Shown here piece after piece: positions 358 through 8,678 of a DNA stretch of 64,000 nucleotides. Where the stretch lies: the NCBI GenBank assembly GCA_022510505.1, contig JAFLTL010000001.1, positions 1-64,000 of the forward strand. Direction: 5' to 3'. This DNA comes from Muribaculaceae bacterium (GTDB lineage: Bacteria > Bacteroidota > Bacteroidia > Bacteroidales > Muribaculaceae). Numbering within the stretch: position 1 is the first letter of the stretch; the number at the start of each line of letters is the position of its first letter. A program made the translations under genes and the position numbers. Below the pieces are notes generated by a model. The model saw only the letters and a list, made by a program, of their open reading frames with translations. It was not told the DNA's origin and searched no databases.

Positions 358-1749
358 TTAGTTTTCATAGTATTCTTTTCTGACACCAAACGCGAATCTC
401 CGTTGACAAATGAAAGCGAGAATAGCGAATCCTGCTGCGAGAATAAAGTTGAAAAGGAAGGGGAACGTTTCGGCGTGTCGGGCATGGAATATTGCTGCAG
501 CTCCATCAATTATGAAGGGTACAGCAACAATGGAAAGGTAATTGGCCGTCAAGACAAAGGCCAATGCCAAGGTAGCCTTTGCCGGGTTGTTAACCGTACG
601 ACTCGCTTTGTCATAGATTAAGGGTTGGAGTACACCGTAACCACCACCTGCCAAAATGGCTCCTAAGCAGAGCATGAAGGGATGATCAAAGAACGCGTAA
701 GCTCCTAAGCCGAGAGCCATCAAAATGGCACAAACCCAGAACGTTGTTGCCTTTAGACCTTTCACAATATAAGGAAGGAGAAATCCGGGCAAGAAAATAA
801 AGAGGAAGAACAATGAAGTGATTGTTCCGGTCAGCTCGGTGCTCCAGCCCTTTGATTGTACAAGATAGGAAACATAATAGTCTATAGCCATTGTCGAATA
901 GGAGATAAAGAAATAAACTCCAATAACGCTCCATATTCTTCCGATGAAAAAACCTTTGATAATCTTTGGGAGTTTTGTTGCCGGATGAGTAGATGCCTGG
1001 GGATTGATAGTTTTTTCTTGCAAAATATCAGTTTGACCAATACCCTCAGCTGCTCTTTTGGCCATTTCTTGGGCCTCTTGTGCAACTTTTTCAGCATCGG
1101 CAACAGCTTCATGGGCTATTTGTGGTGCTTCAGAATAGACTGTTGGATGGGATTTTGCCAAAAGATCGGCTGATGGGATTCCATGGAGCCCGAACGTCAT
1201 CAATAACGGAATAATTGCAACCAGGTAGACCAGGAAAGGTAGATGCCAGTGAAAGGTGTCTTTACACAACCATCCGACAATGAAAGTAGCTGCTACTACA
1301 GTCAGATTAGAAATACCGCTCTGGAGTCCCATTACCTTCATTCGGTACTTATTGGCAAAAACATCAGCAATAAATCCGGTAGAGAAAGGAATGATTAAAC
1401 CGGCTCCGCACCCCAAAAGACAGCTGATAATAATCAGATAGGTCATGCTGTTGGCAAACATATATAGGATGCCACAAGCGAAGAAGATTGCCAGACCCAG
1501 AACCACAGTCAGAATCTTATGGCGAGATAACGACAGTCGTCCTGACAGCAGAACAAAAGGAATAATCAGTAAGTTTGGAAGTACGGTTAGCAGTTGCTGT
1601 TCCGTTTCGGTAGTGTGAGGGAACACCTTGGATAATGTCCCCAACATTGGACTGATTGCAAGCCCTGGCAAATTAACCACGAGCGACAGCGAAAGAATCG
1701 CTGCCGCCGTGATAAATGTTACAGGCTGTTTTCCGGTCTGAATAGCCAT
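358..1749 (-). CDS. MFS transporter with alanine-rich central loop
   Basis: A 463-residue major facilitator superfamily carrier of the inner membrane. Six hydrophobic helices (about residues 12-190) and a second bundle (about 275-450) flank a cytoplasmic loop of about 80 residues, longer than usual. The loop holds an alanine/glutamate-rich helix (about 211-236, AEKVAQEAQEMAKRAAEG) that resembles the tail of the adjacent amino-acid exchanger. The gene starts 3 bases after the exchanger stop, so the two are surely co-transcribed, downstream of two PSD-like decarboxylases. The substrate cannot be read from sequence; import of an amino acid or export of an amine is an inference from the neighbours. 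Confidence 0.85.
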   Translation of the reverse strand: MAIQTGKQPVTFITAAAILSLSLVVNLPGLAISPMLGTLSKVFPHTTETEQQLLTVLPNLLIIPFVLLSGRLSLSRHKILTVVLGLAIFFACGILYMFANSMTYLIIISCLLGCGAGLIIPFSTGFIADVFANKYRMKVMGLQSGISNLTVVAATFIVGWLCKDTFHWHLPFLVYLVAIIPLLMTFGLHGIPSADLLAKSHPTVYSEAPQIAHEAVADAEKVAQEAQEMAKRAAEGIGQTDILQEKTINPQASTHPATKLPKIIKGFFIGRIWSVIGVYFFISYSTMAIDYYVSYLVQSKGWSTELTGTITSLFFLFIFLPGFLLPYIVKGLKATTFWVCAILMALGLGAYAFFDHPFMLCLGAILAGGGYGVLQPLIYDKASRTVNNPAKATLALAFVLTANYLSIVAVPFIIDGAAAIFHARHAETFPFLFNFILAAGFAILAFICQRRFAFGVRKEYYEN

Positions 1750-1752
1750 GAC

Positions 1753-3723
1753 TTACTTATTGTCGGAGTTTTTCAATCCTTCAATCTCGTCGGAAACTTT
1801 GCGGGCGTCCTCCATTGCTGCTCTTGCTTTGGCTTCGGCAGCTTCTACCTCATCAGCAGCTCGGGAGAGAATTTGAGCATCCTCAGCTTCCTTCGCAGCC
1901 TTATCGGCAAGTTCGGCAGCTTCTTTCGCTAGTTGTGCTGCTTCAACCGACACCTCTTGGGGCTGTTGATTATTTGAATCGACTGTTGTCGTTTGATTAG
2001 TAGTGCTCTGAGAAGTTCCGGCATCGGCCGGTGCCTGAGCAGGTTTCGACTGAGGTGCTGTCTGAGAAGTGACACTAATGGGTGCACTACCTGCCTGTGG
2101 CTGAATTTTCATGTTATCGATTTCAGAAATTGTTTTCAAAGAAACCGGACCTAATTCACCATCTTCCCATTCCATAGCGCGAGATATTTCTGCATCTGTC
2201 GGAACATAACCTTCAGGCCACTTCGAAATCTGATCGGGCTGACGTCCTTCGATTTCCCAGTTGAAAGGATAGAAATCGGTGTTTTTGTCGCGCCAAGAAG
2301 CCTTACGACGATCGTATACGATGAACGGAACTGCGAGTAGAACTGCACACCCTGCTACAAGTATTACGATATAGGTAATAGGATTTCCTGTGTTAATCTG
2401 TGACGGAGGGAAGAAACTTATGACAGTTGCCAACAAAGCTCCTGCTATACCAACCACACCGATGAGCCATTCAACGAATTTGCCACCTGGTACGCGGAAA
2501 CCTCTCTTGACATTGGGTTCGGTACGACGTAGACGAATGAATGCTGCGTAGATGACAATTGCCATAATCAGGTAAAGGATGGTCGACATCTGACTTAAAA
2601 TCTGATAGGCCGATTCCACACTGGGAAGGATGACCAACACAAGGGAAAGAATGGTGACGACTATACCCTGAATCCACAGCAGAGGAACCTGAATTCCATT
2701 CTTGTTTGTCCTTTGAAGGCTCTTGGGAAGGTAACCTGATTTACCGACAGCAAGAATACCTGTTGAAGGGCCTGCAATGATTACGCTAACTTGACCTATT
2801 ACACCGAATGTAATGAATACTGCCAGAACGTTGCCAAGCCAAGGTACTCCGAGATGAGCCCACAACTGATCGTAGGCATAGAGCAAACTTGCTAACAGAT
2901 TAATATCTTTGGCCGGTTCAACGAAACCGATGGCAAGAGTGCCTGCAATAAAGATGACTAGAATTATAATCACAGCGAGGAACACCGACTTAGGGAAAGT
3001 CTTGGCCGGGTTATTCATGTTGTTTACGTGAACCGCCTGCATTTCCATACCACCATAGAAAAGGAATATCGAAGCTGCTAGAACTATGGTCTGATAGTTT
3101 TTGAAGTCGGGCCAGAACGGTTGGCTACCGTTGATAAAATTATGACCACCTGTACAGATGTAGATTACACCAAGAATGATCAGAATTGCGCCGGGAATAA
3201 TAGTTCCAAATAAACCCCCGAGAGTGGAAAGCTTATTAGCTGATTTGATACCACGGAAGGTATTGAAAGTGCTAAGCCAGAAGACTCCCAGCAGGATACA
3301 AATAGTATAGATTTTATTAGCTGCCAGATGGGCATCGAAACTTTCGGGCCAGAAAACATAGGCTAAAGCTACCGATGCGAACATCAGTACGGCCGGGAAC
3401 CAGATGAGAACCACCATCCATTCCATGTACATGGCTGCCCATCCCCAGCGCGGACCGAATGCCTCGGCGCACCAACGGAACAAACCACCACTCTTGGTAT
3501 AAGTCGATGCAAGCTCGGCACAAACCAACGAGAAGGGAATCAAAAAAACGATAGCGGCAAGAATATACCAGAAGATGGATGTATAACCGAATTCGGCTTG
3601 GGAAGAAAGACCGCGAAGACTCAGTACCGTTGTGATGATGAGAATCGCCATTCCTACCATAGAGAGGGAACCTTTCTTCGATGCACCCGTCGAAGCTCCT
3701 TTCGGAGGATTGGAAGTTGCCAT
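1753..3723 (-). CDS. APC-family amino-acid exchanger (GadC-like) with coiled-coil tail
   Basis: A 656-residue amino acid-polyamine-organocation permease of the glutamate:GABA antiporter type, with about 12 membrane helices between residues 20 and 480. The start ATG at 3723 (MATSNPPKGAS) is chosen because the upstream reading frame has no family similarity. Beyond the transport domain is a cytoplasmic tail of about 170 residues: a GadC-like soluble stretch, then a Q/T/P-rich linker, then an Ala/Glu/Lys helix (about 591-656) of coiled-coil character. Family members usually end far earlier. Genes upstream are two pyruvoyl decarboxylases, so substrate/product exchange coupled to amino-acid decarboxylation is the likely role. 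The actual amino acid is unknown. Confidence 0.87.
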   Translation of the reverse strand: MATSNPPKGASTGASKKGSLSMVGMAILIITTVLSLRGLSSQAEFGYTSIFWYILAAIVFLIPFSLVCAELASTYTKSGGLFRWCAEAFGPRWGWAAMYMEWMVVLIWFPAVLMFASVALAYVFWPESFDAHLAANKIYTICILLGVFWLSTFNTFRGIKSANKLSTLGGLFGTIIPGAILIILGVIYICTGGHNFINGSQPFWPDFKNYQTIVLAASIFLFYGGMEMQAVHVNNMNNPAKTFPKSVFLAVIIILVIFIAGTLAIGFVEPAKDINLLASLLYAYDQLWAHLGVPWLGNVLAVFITFGVIGQVSVIIAGPSTGILAVGKSGYLPKSLQRTNKNGIQVPLLWIQGIVVTILSLVLVILPSVESAYQILSQMSTILYLIMAIVIYAAFIRLRRTEPNVKRGFRVPGGKFVEWLIGVVGIAGALLATVISFFPPSQINTGNPITYIVILVAGCAVLLAVPFIVYDRRKASWRDKNTDFYPFNWEIEGRQPDQISKWPEGYVPTDAEISRAMEWEDGELGPVSLKTISEIDNMKIQPQAGSAPISVTSQTAPQSKPAQAPADAGTSQSTTNQTTTVDSNNQQPQEVSVEAAQLAKEAAELADKAAKEAEDAQILSRAADEVEAAEAKARAAMEDARKVSDEIEGLKNSDNK

Positions 3724-3799
3724 AGTTATTCTTTTAGGGTTGTTATTGAGTTTCCTTAAAAAACCGGAAGGTTCAGCGTTTAGGGAGAAGAATCCGGTT

Positions 3800-3835
3800 A
3801 AAAGGAAGGGGAAAGTTTTATTTGAAACTCTCCCC
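3800..3835 (-). terminator. Hairpin between decarboxylase and exchanger genes
   Basis: On the minus strand GGGGAGAGTTT pairs with AAACTTTCCCC (one G-U), followed by TTCCTTTT. It lies about 50 bases past the decarboxylase stop and 75 bases before the exchanger start. It could be a full terminator or an attenuator that lowers transporter expression relative to the decarboxylases. Confidence 0.6.
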
Positions 3836-3883
3836 TTCAATATTAAATTTCTCTATTCAAGCGAAAAGTTGATAATTGTCTCA

Positions 3884-5032
3884 TTACTTTTTCCCAACTA
3901 CTGGGTAGGCCTGAGCGATACGTGTGCCAACTTTATAGTGAACACCGGGTTGCGCTGTGAAGCTAACGTTAGCCTTTTCCTGGAAGACCATTACATAGTC
4001 GGAACCACCGAACTGGAAGTAACTGATTTCTTCTCCTTTGTGGAGGGTACGGCCAACCTCGGCTGTCAAAACTACACTTGAGACGTTACTCATTCCGATT
4101 GGCAGTACTGCTACCAAACCAACTACCGGGTTGTCGATAATGATACATCCACGAGTTTGCATGAATTCATAACCTGCCATATCGGGAGCATAGATCTGTT
4201 CGCGTTTGATCTTGGTTTTACCAGGCTGTCCGGGAACAGGTTCAGCCGATATGTTAACGTAGGTAGTTCCTTGAATTACACGTGCTTCAACTACTTTGCC
4301 AGAAACTGGGGCATGTTGACGGTGATAGTCGTTGGTATTCAGGAAAGAGTGTGTCCACATTCCACCTTTGAAGGCATCCTTGTAAGCACTTCCTTCAAGA
4401 AGTTCCTCAATCTTCCAATAAAGACCCTTACATTCAACACCCGTGTTGGAGTTCACTTCCCATTGACCTGAGAAAGTTGCTTCAGCTGCTGCTACGATTA
4501 CAGTGTCGTCATCAATAGCTGCGATTGGGCGATAACCGGGTTTTGTGACGCGTGCAAAGAATTCATTGAATGATTTCCAGCCACCACGGGGTTCAACATA
4601 TTCATCAAGATTGTAGTTAGGAGCATCACGGAATGTCTGTAATGTCTCGGGAGTCAATGACTCGGGCTTGTCTAGGAATTCACCTTGGGCAATCATGTAT
4701 TTTTTAAGCCATGCGCTAAGCGGAGTCAAGGGCTGCTCTACATCGTGAGGAACTACTGCGTTCTGAAGTTCTTTGACAGGGCTCTGATCGAAAACGAAGA
4801 AGAACTTGCAAAGATATTCTAGGCAAAGATTACCCCAACGGTTCTCTTTCGGTATCCAGGTTACAAACATGTTAATCCAGTTCAGCCAGCTGTCGAGGTC
4901 TTTTACGTCCTCCATCCCTTCGATATTGTAGGATGCTGTCTTGGCAATTGCCTGTTTGAATTTGTCTTCCCATCCGTTTTGTTTGATGAGTTCAACAAGT
5001 TCCTGAACTATGGGTTGATATTGTGTAGCCAT
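3884..5032 (-). CDS. Phosphatidylserine decarboxylase-like pyruvoyl enzyme, copy 1
   Basis: A 382-residue protein with an N-terminal PSDC-like domain (about 1-150) and a C-terminal phosphatidylserine-decarboxylase domain. The proenzyme cleavage motif (LGST in classical Psd) is FGGSDY here, putting the pyruvoyl-forming serine at residue 344; the histidine motif YHRQHAP and FNEFFAR correspond to family catalytic blocks. There is no membrane segment, unlike a dedicated phospholipid Psd, and this PSDC-containing branch includes soluble amino-acid (tryptophan-type) decarboxylases. It follows a close paralogue 39 bases upstream and precedes an APC exchanger, which favours amino-acid decarboxylation with antiport over phospholipid synthesis. 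The substrate is not determinable here. Confidence 0.85.
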   Translation of the reverse strand: MATQYQPIVQELVELIKQNGWEDKFKQAIAKTASYNIEGMEDVKDLDSWLNWINMFVTWIPKENRWGNLCLEYLCKFFFVFDQSPVKELQNAVVPHDVEQPLTPLSAWLKKYMIAQGEFLDKPESLTPETLQTFRDAPNYNLDEYVEPRGGWKSFNEFFARVTKPGYRPIAAIDDDTVIVAAAEATFSGQWEVNSNTGVECKGLYWKIEELLEGSAYKDAFKGGMWTHSFLNTNDYHRQHAPVSGKVVEARVIQGTTYVNISAEPVPGQPGKTKIKREQIYAPDMAGYEFMQTRGCIIIDNPVVGLVAVLPIGMSNVSSVVLTAEVGRTLHKGEEISYFQFGGSDYVMVFQEKANVSFTAQPGVHYKVGTRIAQAYPVVGKK

Positions 5033-5071
5033 TTTCGTAGTTAGCTAATCGTTAATACTCTGTTGATTGAA

Positions 5072-6229
5072 TTAGAAACGACGTGGGTCGATTACCGGGA
5101 AAGCCTGTGCAATGCGTGTTCCAACTTTGTAGTGAACACCGGGCTGAGCTGTGAAGCTAACATTGGAAGCCTCCTGATATACTGTCACAATATCGGAACC
5201 ACCGAACTGGAAGTAACTGATTTCTTCACCTTTGTGAAGTGTGCGGCCTTCCTCAGCTGTAAGAACGATCGAAGAAACTTGAGCCATTCCCATAGGAAGA
5301 ACTGCAACCAAACCAATCGGGCTGTCTATTACAACGAGACCACGAGTCTGCATGAATTCATAACCGGGATCATCGGGCGCGTCAAAAGTTCTCTTCATAA
5401 CAAGTTGTTTACGGCCTTGAGCGTCACCTTCGATAGGTTCGGCAGTTACCTGGAGGTAACAAGTTCCCTGAATAACACGAGCTTCAACAACTTTACCCAT
5501 GATAGGAGCATGCTGACGGTGATAATCGTTAGTGTTCAGGAAAGAATGAGTCCATTGACCACCCTTGAATGCATCAGCATAGGGGCTTCCTTCGAGAAGT
5601 TCTTCAATTTTCCAATCCAATCCTTTTATTGAAACATGGGAATTGCTGTTGACTTCCCATTGTCCGTCAAATGTAGAGTCTGCCGGTGAAACGATAACAG
5701 TAGGGTCACCAATGGCTGCTATTGGACGATAACCGGGTTTTGTTCTGCGAGCAAACATTTGGTTGAATGATTTCCAACCACCGCGCGGACGGATATATTC
5801 TCCCATGTTATAGTTAGCTGCGGCGTAGAAAGTTGCTTCTGATTCCGGTGTTAATGAATCGGGCTGATCCATCCATTCGCCAAGAGCATTAACATACTCT
5901 CTCATCCATGCGCTAAGCGGGGTGAGGGGTTGCATTTTGTCGTGAGGTACGACTGCATTTTGAAGTTCCTTAACAGGGCTCTGGTCGAGAAGGAAGTAGA
6001 ACTTGCAAACGTGTTGATAAACGAGTTTGCCATAGTTGTTCTCAATGGGTACCCAGCTTAACTGAGCGTCACACCATTTCAAATAGTCGTCGAGAGTTTT
6101 TACGTCTTCCATACCGACTACGTTAAGAGCCTGCGCATTCTTGAGAGCCTGCTCGAACTTGTCTTGCCAGTTGTTTGTTCTGATCAAGTCAACCAGCTTT
6201 TGCACGATGGGATGATAAGTTTGTGCCAT
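5072..6229 (-). CDS. Phosphatidylserine decarboxylase-like pyruvoyl enzyme, copy 2
   Basis: A 385-residue paralogue of the next gene downstream, with the same architecture: N-terminal PSDC-like part, block WTHSFLNTNDYHRQHAP, and FGGSDI with predicted pyruvoyl serine 345. Long segments around the catalytic motifs are identical in the two proteins, while N-termini and the strand after YHRQHAP differ. They look like a tandem duplication kept for different substrates or as subunits of one heteromer. This copy is first in the cluster and must be read from a promoter in the 6230-6420 gap. As in copy 1, lack of a membrane anchor and the transporter neighbours argue for a small-molecule substrate. 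Confidence 0.85.
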   Translation of the reverse strand: MAQTYHPIVQKLVDLIRTNNWQDKFEQALKNAQALNVVGMEDVKTLDDYLKWCDAQLSWVPIENNYGKLVYQHVCKFYFLLDQSPVKELQNAVVPHDKMQPLTPLSAWMREYVNALGEWMDQPDSLTPESEATFYAAANYNMGEYIRPRGGWKSFNQMFARRTKPGYRPIAAIGDPTVIVSPADSTFDGQWEVNSNSHVSIKGLDWKIEELLEGSPYADAFKGGQWTHSFLNTNDYHRQHAPIMGKVVEARVIQGTCYLQVTAEPIEGDAQGRKQLVMKRTFDAPDDPGYEFMQTRGLVVIDSPIGLVAVLPMGMAQVSSIVLTAEEGRTLHKGEEISYFQFGGSDIVTVYQEASNVSFTAQPGVHYKVGTRIAQAFPVIDPRRF

Positions 6230-6425: not shown

Positions 6426-8678
6426 ATGATAAAATTTTTTTCTTTTTGTCTGATTTTCTCTTCTTGTGGTTTTTTATCTGCTCTTTCCCAAGGTACATTG
6501 GAGGATTATCAACGCGCATATTCGATAGGAAATACCTATAACTTTGGACGAGTCAACAATGCAAGAATTATACCCCATTGGATAGAGGGGACAAACAAAG
6601 TTTGGTTTATTTTAGACGGTGACAACGGAAAGGAATATACAGTACTCGATGCTGTATCATTAAAAACCTACCGAATGTTTGATCATTCGACAGTAGCCCG
6701 TAATTTATCGGAAATAATGGATTACCCTGTAGACAAGGATAATATCGAATTGACAGGTCTTAGAGTGAATGGAAAATGCGATACCATTTGGTTCATTCAT
6801 GATAATTACCGTTGGGTTTACCCATTAAAAGGTTCTAACAATCCTTCAAGAATGGAGCCGCTTCCCCAGCGATTACCCGAACCACATTGGATGGTAGTGG
6901 ATGAGGAAAAAAACGGGGGGCCAATAGTTTCATCCGACGGCAAAAGAACAGCTTTTGTTCAAGACAACAACGTATATGTAAGGGATAATATAACAGGTAA
7001 AGAATTTCAATTAAGCCTGGACGGAACTTTGGGCAACTATTATTCTACTTTCATCGAATGGTCACCCGACGGGAAGAAGTTGGCAGTCAATAAAATTAAA
7101 AGTGCGCCTAAAAGATTCGTATATTATGTAGAATCTTCCCCAGGAAAAGGATCACAGCCAATTCTCCACAAACAGGAGTATGCCAAGCCGGGCGACGAGT
7201 TAAGATTCAAAACCCCCGTTATTTTTAATGTGGAGACAGGCGAGCAACTGTCACCATCTACCGAGCTTTTTAACTGCCAATATGACCTTTACGGTCCATT
7301 CTGGAATGATGATTCAGATGGCATCGTGTTTGAATACAATGAGAGAGGACATAAGAACTATCGCGTGTTGGAGATGTCGGCAACAAATGGCAACGTCAGA
7401 AGCCTGATAGACGAGAGCCATGACAAATATGTCAATTATACCAGAATTTTCCGTCACTATCTGAAAGACGGCAAACGCATTATTTGGAGTAGCGAACGTG
7501 ACAATTACAATCATTTGTATATGTATTGCCGGGAAACCGGAGAGATTTCTCACCAGATAACTAAGGGGCCATGGTATGTACGCGAGGTTATTCACGTTGA
7601 TGAACCAGGTGAAAAGATTTATTTTTCTGCCAATGGTATGTGCCCCGATGAAGATCCATATTTTATAAGATATTATTCAATAAATTTCGACGGTAGCTGT
7701 CTGACAGATCTAACACCTTCACCGGGAACTCACACTGCATGGTTTTCTCCCGATTTCAAATACCTGGTCGATTCCTACTCGACAGTATACACTCCTCCTG
7801 TGACTGTTCTTAGGGATGCAAAGGATGGGAAGGTTTTAAAAACGATTGCTACAGCCGACATATCAAACCTAACGGCAGCAGGATGGAAAGCCCCGGAGGT
7901 TTTTATAGCGCCTGGTCGCGACGGTAAGACGCCGATGTGGGGTGTGATATATCGTCCGAGTAACTTTGACCCTGGAGAAACCTATCCAGTCATCGAATAT
8001 ATTTATCAGGGTCCTGGGGACCAGTATGTTCCCAAGGCATTTTATCCCTATCACCGTTATATAATGCCCCTTGCCGAATTGGGTTTCATTGTTGCGATGG
8101 TCGATGGGATGGGTACTTCCTTCCGTACACGGGAATTCGAGAATTTTTGTTATAAGAATCTTGTTGATGCCGGGTTACCCGATCATATTGCATGGCTCAA
8201 AGCGGCAGGGGAGAGGTATCCTTATATGGACCTAAACCGGGTTGGCATCTACGGAGGTTCTGCCGGAGGTCAAGAATCTATGACAGCGGTTCTGCATCAC
8301 CCCGATTTCTATAAAGCTGCTTATTCTGCATGCGGTTGTCATGACAACCGAATGGATAAAATCTGGTGGAATGAACAGTGGCTGGGATATCCCGTCGATT
8401 CATCCTATATCGAGGCATCGAATGTCGAGAATGCTCATTTGTTGACACGCCCACTGATGTTGGTGGTAGGAGAACTTGACGATAATGTAGATCCTGCCTC
8501 GACAATGCAGGTCGTTGACGCATTAATAAAGGCTAACAAGGATTTCGAACTGGTTTTTCTTCCTGGTGTCGGCCACACCTTGGGAGAAGAATATGGCGAA
8601 CACAAGAGATTTGATTTCTTTGTCAAAAATCTGCTTGGGGTCGATCCTCCCACGTGGAGCGAACTACATCAGGAGTAA
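6426..8678 (+). CDS. S9 family (DPP IV-like) exported serine peptidase
   Basis: A 750-residue prolyl-oligopeptidase-family enzyme. An N-terminal signal sequence of about 20 residues precedes a DPPIV N-terminal beta-propeller (about 80-490) and a C-terminal alpha/beta-hydrolase domain (about 520-745). The catalytic triad is visible: Ser612 in YGGSAGG, Asp685 in GELDDNV and His717 in GVGHT. It probably removes dipeptides from oligopeptides in the periplasm or at the cell surface, supplying amino acids; substrate preference (Xaa-Pro or other) cannot be assigned because the nucleophile motif GGSAGG differs from the classic GWSYGG. It is monocistronic and divergent from the amino-acid decarboxylase cluster. 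Confidence 0.9.
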   Translation: MIKFFSFCLIFSSCGFLSALSQGTLEDYQRAYSIGNTYNFGRVNNARIIPHWIEGTNKVWFILDGDNGKEYTVLDAVSLKTYRMFDHSTVARNLSEIMDYPVDKDNIELTGLRVNGKCDTIWFIHDNYRWVYPLKGSNNPSRMEPLPQRLPEPHWMVVDEEKNGGPIVSSDGKRTAFVQDNNVYVRDNITGKEFQLSLDGTLGNYYSTFIEWSPDGKKLAVNKIKSAPKRFVYYVESSPGKGSQPILHKQEYAKPGDELRFKTPVIFNVETGEQLSPSTELFNCQYDLYGPFWNDDSDGIVFEYNERGHKNYRVLEMSATNGNVRSLIDESHDKYVNYTRIFRHYLKDGKRIIWSSERDNYNHLYMYCRETGEISHQITKGPWYVREVIHVDEPGEKIYFSANGMCPDEDPYFIRYYSINFDGSCLTDLTPSPGTHTAWFSPDFKYLVDSYSTVYTPPVTVLRDAKDGKVLKTIATADISNLTAAGWKAPEVFIAPGRDGKTPMWGVIYRPSNFDPGETYPVIEYIYQGPGDQYVPKAFYPYHRYIMPLAELGFIVAMVDGMGTSFRTREFENFCYKNLVDAGLPDHIAWLKAAGERYPYMDLNRVGIYGGSAGGQESMTAVLHHPDFYKAAYSACGCHDNRMDKIWWNEQWLGYPVDSSYIEASNVENAHLLTRPLMLVVGELDDNVDPASTMQVVDALIKANKDFELVFLPGVGHTLGEEYGEHKRFDFFVKNLLGVDPPTWSELHQE

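Follow-up and report, generated by a model that had tools for sequence, protein, structure and literature searches.

The 64,000-nucleotide stretch of Muribaculaceae DNA analyzed here (the window) carries a cassette whose best explanation as a whole, with a probability of roughly 70%, is an amino-acid decarboxylase/antiporter system containing an enzyme of the phosphatidylserine decarboxylase (PSD) fold that joined, and often replaced, an unrelated PLP enzyme. The cassette is real, conserved, and functionally coherent, and both the class of its enzymes and their partnership with an exchanger are well supported. The finding suggests that mouse-gut-type Muribaculaceae have a known kind of amine-producing, acid-relieving system in a chemical version that is new.

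Gene organization of the cassette

Four genes run along the minus strand from position 6229 to 358, in the order PSD-like, PSD-like, GadC-like exchanger, and MFS carrier (Table 1), with intergenic gaps of 39, 160, and 3 bp from 5′ to 3′ and no internal stops. The first-pass annotation had described this layout, and its open reading frames, strand, and domains were confirmed, as were its predicted pyruvoyl serines: Ser345 of the first paralogue and Ser344 of the second are the last residues of the GGS motif. Its treatment of the paired paralogues and of the MFS carrier as features of the system has to be relaxed, because both are optional: in many relatives a single enzyme occurs without an MFS gene.

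The two paralogues share 67% identity, and the MFS carrier is 46–48% identical to those of glutamate decarboxylase operons in related species. As called, the exchanger reading frame spans 1753–3840 on the minus strand, with a TTG start at 3840; this codon is probably unused, since the ATG at 3723 gives a protein of 656 residues, consistent with relatives. Promoter and terminator scans returned nothing relevant to the operon above shuffled sequence.

Table 1. Genes of the cassette in the window, listed from 5′ to 3′.
Feature	Position	Strand	Length	Basis and features
PSD-fold pyruvoyl decarboxylase, paralogue 1	5072..6229	-	385 aa	PF02666 6.6e-45; predicted self-cleavage Gly344-Ser345; Asp184, as in E. 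coli PSD
PSD-fold pyruvoyl decarboxylase, paralogue 2	3884..5032	-	382 aa	PF02666 1e-42; predicted pyruvoyl Ser344; Glu replaces Asp184, as in PsiD and the Aspergillus arginine decarboxylase
GadC-like APC amino-acid/amine exchanger	1753..3723	-	656 aa from ATG 3723	TIGR03813 599.8 bits; 4dji (E. coli GadC) 3.6e-65; pocket Y93/Q304/I308/A382; variable Ala/Glu-rich C-terminal tail
MFS carrier, accessory	358..1749	-		PF07690 (MFS_1) 1.2e-30

Several features of the surroundings were also recorded. The first decarboxylase gene is separated by 196 bp from a divergent plus-strand gene for an S9/DPP IV-like peptidase (6426–8678). Immediately beyond the 3′ end of the MFS gene, at about positions 1–50 on the minus strand, lies a tRNA-like sequence, probably tRNA-Arg, that is truncated by the contig end and for which ARAGORN made no call. 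Ala/Glu-rich, coil-like stretches are encoded on the minus strand in the exchanger C-terminal tail (1753–2250) and in the central loop of the MFS carrier (985–1130). Their length and sequence vary strongly among relatives, and a role for either as a conserved partner interface was rejected, given tails that vary widely and have no conserved motif.

Linkage of enzyme and exchanger

A scan of named genomes yielded 34 loci, almost all assigned by their labels to Muribaculaceae or elsewhere in Bacteroidales, and when 397 genomes from the family of the window were surveyed, 63 (16%) had a PSD-like gene; together these gave 69 distinct loci. In 59 of these 69 Muribaculaceae loci, the exchanger gene lies directly 3′ of the PSD-like gene on the same strand, and the two genes are thus conserved together, as in a decarboxylase/antiporter system. 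Ten loci have no GadC gene in the tested position; two of them have a divergent GadC, and two others belong to genomes that carry a second, complete cassette. An MFS gene is present at 30 of the 69 loci and an outer-membrane porin gene at 26 (PF02530 in two examples tested). Besides these, the commonest other neighbor occurs at only 5 loci, from which it follows that the exchanger linkage outlasts rearrangement of the surroundings.

Named relatives include the cultured Duncaniella muris DSM 103720 (locus L044). A Muribaculaceae-type cassette is also present in a record of 2.6 Mb (L047) whose label, Staphylococcus sp. (NALB_7821b_12), is probably wrong.

Fold and identity of the decarboxylases

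In Pfam scans of the cassette enzymes, PF02666 alone passed (E = 7e-45 and 1e-42 for paralogues 1 and 2), with no match to the pyruvoyl histidine or arginine decarboxylase families. Both window enzymes have the hallmarks of the PF02666 superfamily, a Gly-Ser motif at which self-cleavage is predicted and a conserved histidine; GGSD, G343/G344/S345, K202, and H237 are invariant in 83 of 83 family copies. The best NCBIfam PSD models give 91–93 bits against equivalog cut-offs of 307–371, and TIGR00163 gives 68–72 bits for the window pair against a cut-off of 112.

Profile comparison matched almost the whole chain (residues 9–347) to PsiD (1.2e-47) and residues 7–348 to a protein deposited as an Aspergillus oryzae arginine decarboxylase (1.4e-45); E. 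coli PSD was matched by the C-terminal part only (residues 132–346; 6.9e-33). Foldseek ranked an AlphaFold2 model of paralogue 1 (pLDDT 84.5, pTM 0.80) closest to PsiD, then to the arginine decarboxylase, then to PSD. VIA-align Z scores were 23.2 for PsiD (model residues 3–343), 22.2 for the Aspergillus enzyme (5–343), and 15.4 for E. coli PSD, which aligned only from about residue 80–110 onward. The model thus has the architecture of PsiD and the arginine decarboxylase, an N-terminal helical domain and a catalytic domain across the full chain. Taken together, the full-chain matches indicate that the cassette enzymes are built like PSD-fold amino-acid decarboxylases. In a catalytic-domain tree they form a clade of their own, outside both the PsiD/arginine decarboxylase branch and the PSDs; the reference branches in this tree are long.

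The cassette enzymes are not phosphatidylserine decarboxylases. The genome that contains the window (2.14 Mb, 92% complete) has a canonical PSD elsewhere, far from the cassette (G000:C1:110856; L003), so that a cassette enzyme would not be its sole PSD, and the neighbors of the cassette enzymes are transporters. Action on phosphatidylserine or another phospholipid head group beside chance transporter neighbors, which PF02666 membership would allow, is highly improbable in view of scores far under every PSD equivalog cut-off, the canonical PSD elsewhere, the PsiD-type N-terminal domain, and the exchanger adjacent at 59 of 69 loci.

The first-pass annotation had likewise favored an amino-acid decarboxylase with an exchanger over phospholipid synthesis, and this preference is borne out by the separate canonical PSD, the full-chain fold match, and the exchanger linkage. 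The structural comparison it proposed with PsiD-like tryptophan decarboxylases and Psd found PsiD nearest and PSD weaker, and the survey of Bacteroidales that it also proposed, in which paralogues always apart from the transporters were to count against it, found the exchanger adjacent at most loci. One of its arguments, that the enzymes have no membrane segments, is non-discriminating, because bacterial PSDs do not require such segments.

Relatives of the cassette enzymes occur in other settings. Some members of their sister group have lipoprotein- or signal-like N termini (L062:10163–11449 and L064:9881–11176), as if exported to the periplasm. Distant PSD-fold relatives from other Bacteroidales (L069:10982–12247 and L066:2822–4087) group in the tree with PsiD and with the arginine decarboxylase of Aspergillus (support 100/98) and adjoin PAD_porph genes of the agmatine/peptidyl-arginine deiminase family, a context that would fit a bacterial PSD-fold arginine decarboxylase. 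An agmatine context for the cassette itself was rejected; PAD_porph lies beside the distant relatives only.

Substrate pocket of the exchanger

The window exchanger is nearest to the TIGR03813 GadC model, with a score slightly under the cut-off of 650 (Table 1). Pocket residues were assigned in E. coli GadC numbering by sequence alignment to E. coli GadC. GadC proteins linked to glutamate decarboxylase (GAD) in the same family have W308, T374, and Y382 in 12 of 12 cases, with G or E at position 304. PSD-linked GadC proteins have Q304 in 58 of 58, W308 and Y382 in none, and T374 in one, the shifts being E/G304 to Q, W308 to I/L/V, and Y382 to V/C/A. The window exchanger, with Y93, Q304, I308, S374, and A382, differs accordingly from the Glu/GABA-exchanger set. 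PSD-linked and GAD-linked proteins form separate clades in the exchanger tree, and the nearest exchangers outside the cassette, from Polymorphobacter (55% identity) and Plesiomonas (49%), share Y93, Q304, and I308.

Positions 308 and 382 presumably line the substrate pocket of APC exchangers, and small aliphatic residues there should admit a larger, uncharged side chain. Judged from the aligned residues, the changes speak against glutamate and favor a side chain that is neutral and bulkier, whether aromatic, branched, or sulphur-containing, and the substrate is probably a bulky neutral amino acid.

The same evidence makes it unlikely that the cassette is a pyruvoyl glutamate system, in which the enzymes would convert Glu to GABA and the exchanger would be a true Glu(Gln)/GABA antiporter. 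Such a system would agree with the proximity of the exchanger to TIGR03813, with the resemblance of the operon to GadB-GlsA-GadC-MFS, and with a window genome that has no GadB (no match to the PLP decarboxylase family PF00282 in the 92%-complete genome, and none in the operon). PSD-like and GadB genes also occur together in somewhat fewer genomes than expected (6 versus 9.8), although this deficit is weak and not significant, and strict mutual exclusion of the two was rejected. Against a glutamate system stand the uniform pocket differences, the separate clades of the two GadC groups, a cassette without glutaminase, and the retention of both systems in those six genomes.

Partner swapping around the exchanger

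The Polymorphobacter and Plesiomonas exchangers are paired with a PLP decarboxylase of about 585 residues that none of the curated NCBIfam models claims. A Muribaculaceae PLP decarboxylase of about 584 residues (PLP-X) is 54–58% identical to it. At five Muribaculaceae loci (L108, L110, L111, L113, and L114), the PSD-like gene has PLP-X as its immediate 5′ neighbor, and at three more (L139–L141), PLP-X accompanies the exchanger without a PSD-like gene. Within one exchanger subclade, the partner is thus PLP-X alone (three loci), PLP-X together with a PSD-like enzyme (five), or a PSD-like enzyme alone (most), and the three arrangements are interleaved among the 23 rows of this subclade in the exchanger tree. 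Two of the exchangers with PLP-X only (L139 and L140) are identical at the 22 listed pocket sites to the five rows with both enzymes. PSD-like and PLP-X genes co-occur in 5 cases where 1.6 are expected (p = 0.011, with relatedness ignored).

Most simply, a module of PLP-X and exchanger would have acquired a PSD-fold enzyme, which later took the place of PLP-X; the tree fits either order of gain and loss. Displacement around a common exchanger suggests that PLP-X and the PSD-like enzymes probably have substrates of one amino-acid class, although they could handle different amino acids, a common partner being no proof of a common substrate. The nearest solved relatives of PLP-X are weak matches with tyrosine decarboxylases among them, a possible lead to neutral aromatic substrates.

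The PLP-X/GadC pair is also found on plasmids of Escherichia albertii (L136:5968–9198), Plesiomonas (L091:4115–8947), and Sphingomonas (L137:5941–9295). The E. albertii plasmid is conjugative, and on it a KUP potassium transporter gene follows the pair.

Proposed mechanism and role

On the best explanation, the cassette would be a "virtual proton pump." The exchanger would import an amino acid, and a pyruvoyl enzyme in the cytoplasm, which has the PSD/PsiD fold and would mature through self-cleavage at Gly-Ser345, would remove its carboxyl group, using up a proton; the amine would then be exported through the exchanger. Decarboxylation of a free amino acid in this way would relieve acid and might contribute to acid resistance. 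The MFS carrier and, in relatives, the outer-membrane porin would serve as accessory carriers. In Muribaculaceae, the PSD-fold enzyme would have joined a module of PLP enzyme and exchanger, and the PLP enzyme would have been lost in most lineages by non-orthologous displacement.

Alternatively, the amine could be a useful product, or decarboxylation and antiport could yield energy independently of pH. A biosynthetic or energetic role of this kind, which we consider rather unlikely, would accord with the nearest characterized enzymes, biosynthetic PsiD or an arginine decarboxylase, and with a porin and MFS carrier that suggest trafficking of a compound. The gene panB is a neighbor at a few PSD-like loci, but it also flanks GAD loci, and its linkage is for that reason probably local geography rather than a functional clue. 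Of 35 cassette genomes, 33 encode PanD, which makes a role in beta-alanine supply unnecessary; replacement of PanD by the cassette was rejected on this count.

Two paralogues and one exchanger

Among relatives, enzyme copies number one to three, in tandem. Paralogue 2 of the window and seven relatives form a clade of eight (support 97/99), and these eight are the only ones among 83 copies to have Glu at position 184, where the remaining 75 have Asp; E. coli PSD has Asp at this position, and PsiD and the Aspergillus enzyme have Glu. Both paralogues are under strong purifying selection (dN 0.10–0.16 relative to relatives, with dS saturated). That paralogue 2 has been kept and differs at the conserved position 184 suggests another, related substrate that would use the same exchanger, and two related substrates for the paralogues are plausible.

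A three-component system, in which two enzymes with different substrates share one exchanger, would be compatible with the decarboxylase/antiporter reading and can be proposed tentatively. It agrees with the old paralogue split retained in several species and with the Asp/Glu difference at position 184, and three-component systems for Arg/His and Lys/Orn provide a precedent (PMC8465708); most relatives, however, have a single enzyme with the same type of exchanger. It is similarly possible, if somewhat doubtful, that the PSD-fold pyruvoyl enzyme displaced the PLP decarboxylase through a two-enzyme stage and that its duplicates have come to handle two amino acids with a single exchanger. If this is true, the cassette would be the first decarboxylase/antiporter pump on the phosphatidylserine decarboxylase fold.

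Implications for decarboxylase inventories

We found no description of a PSD-fold bacterial amino-acid decarboxylase or of a Muribaculaceae amine cassette in the open-access literature. An inventory of amino-acid decarboxylases in the gut, published in 2025, has HisDC, Asp-1-DC, and ArgDC as its only pyruvoyl entries, and neither "phosphatidylserine" nor "PF02666" occurs in its text (PMC12484125); the word pyruvoyl is absent from a review of the same year on aromatic amino-acid decarboxylases of the microbiota. The likely amine product is hidden because the family name makes the genes look like phosphatidylserine decarboxylases. If the decarboxylase/antiporter reading holds, a major gut family would gain an amine-producing route that current inventories miss, and one cofactor chemistry would have been swapped for another around a constant exchanger.

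Comparison with known systems

Like GadB/GadC, the glutamate-dependent acid resistance system that occurs with GlsA in enterobacteria and Bacteroidales, the cassette has a decarboxylase gene followed by that of a GadC-family exchanger, and an MFS carrier is common to the cassette and to GAD operons of the same bacterial family, whose classical GadB-GlsA-GadC-MFS operons the cassette parallels. GAD operons of some Muribaculaceae (L079–L082) adjoin a porin and a second MFS gene, accessory types also seen with the pyruvoyl cassette. In contrast to GadB, a PLP enzyme, the cassette enzymes are PSD-fold pyruvoyl enzymes; the cassette encodes no glutaminase, and its exchanger belongs to a separate clade with an altered substrate pocket. 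Tyrosine decarboxylase/TyrP also combines a decarboxylase with an APC exchanger for a bulky neutral amino acid, and Staphylococcus TyrP has Q304 as well, but the enzyme is PLP dependent, and TyrP retains W308 and Y382 and is 23% identical to the window exchanger.

The L-tryptophan decarboxylase PsiD of Psilocybe and the PSD-fold arginine decarboxylase of A. oryzae share the full-chain fold, N-terminal domain, and GGS motif of the cassette enzymes; these are fungal proteins, however, with about 20% identity to them, and we know of no exchanger encoded with either. HdcA/HdcP (histidine) and AaxB/AaxC (arginine) both pair a pyruvoyl enzyme with an APC exchanger, but their enzymes belong to other families (PF02329 for HdcA), whereas the cassette enzymes are PsiD-like members of PF02666. 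Pyruvoyl HdcA with gadC/aaxC-type antiporters, AaxB/AaxC, and two-enzyme clusters have already been described (PMC8465708), and the first-pass annotation's contrast between pyruvoyl and PLP systems was therefore too sharp. The novelty of the cassette is the PSD/PsiD fold in a decarboxylase/antiporter role, not pyruvoyl chemistry alone, and if the reading holds, it would add a further, unrelated pyruvoyl enzyme fold to these systems.
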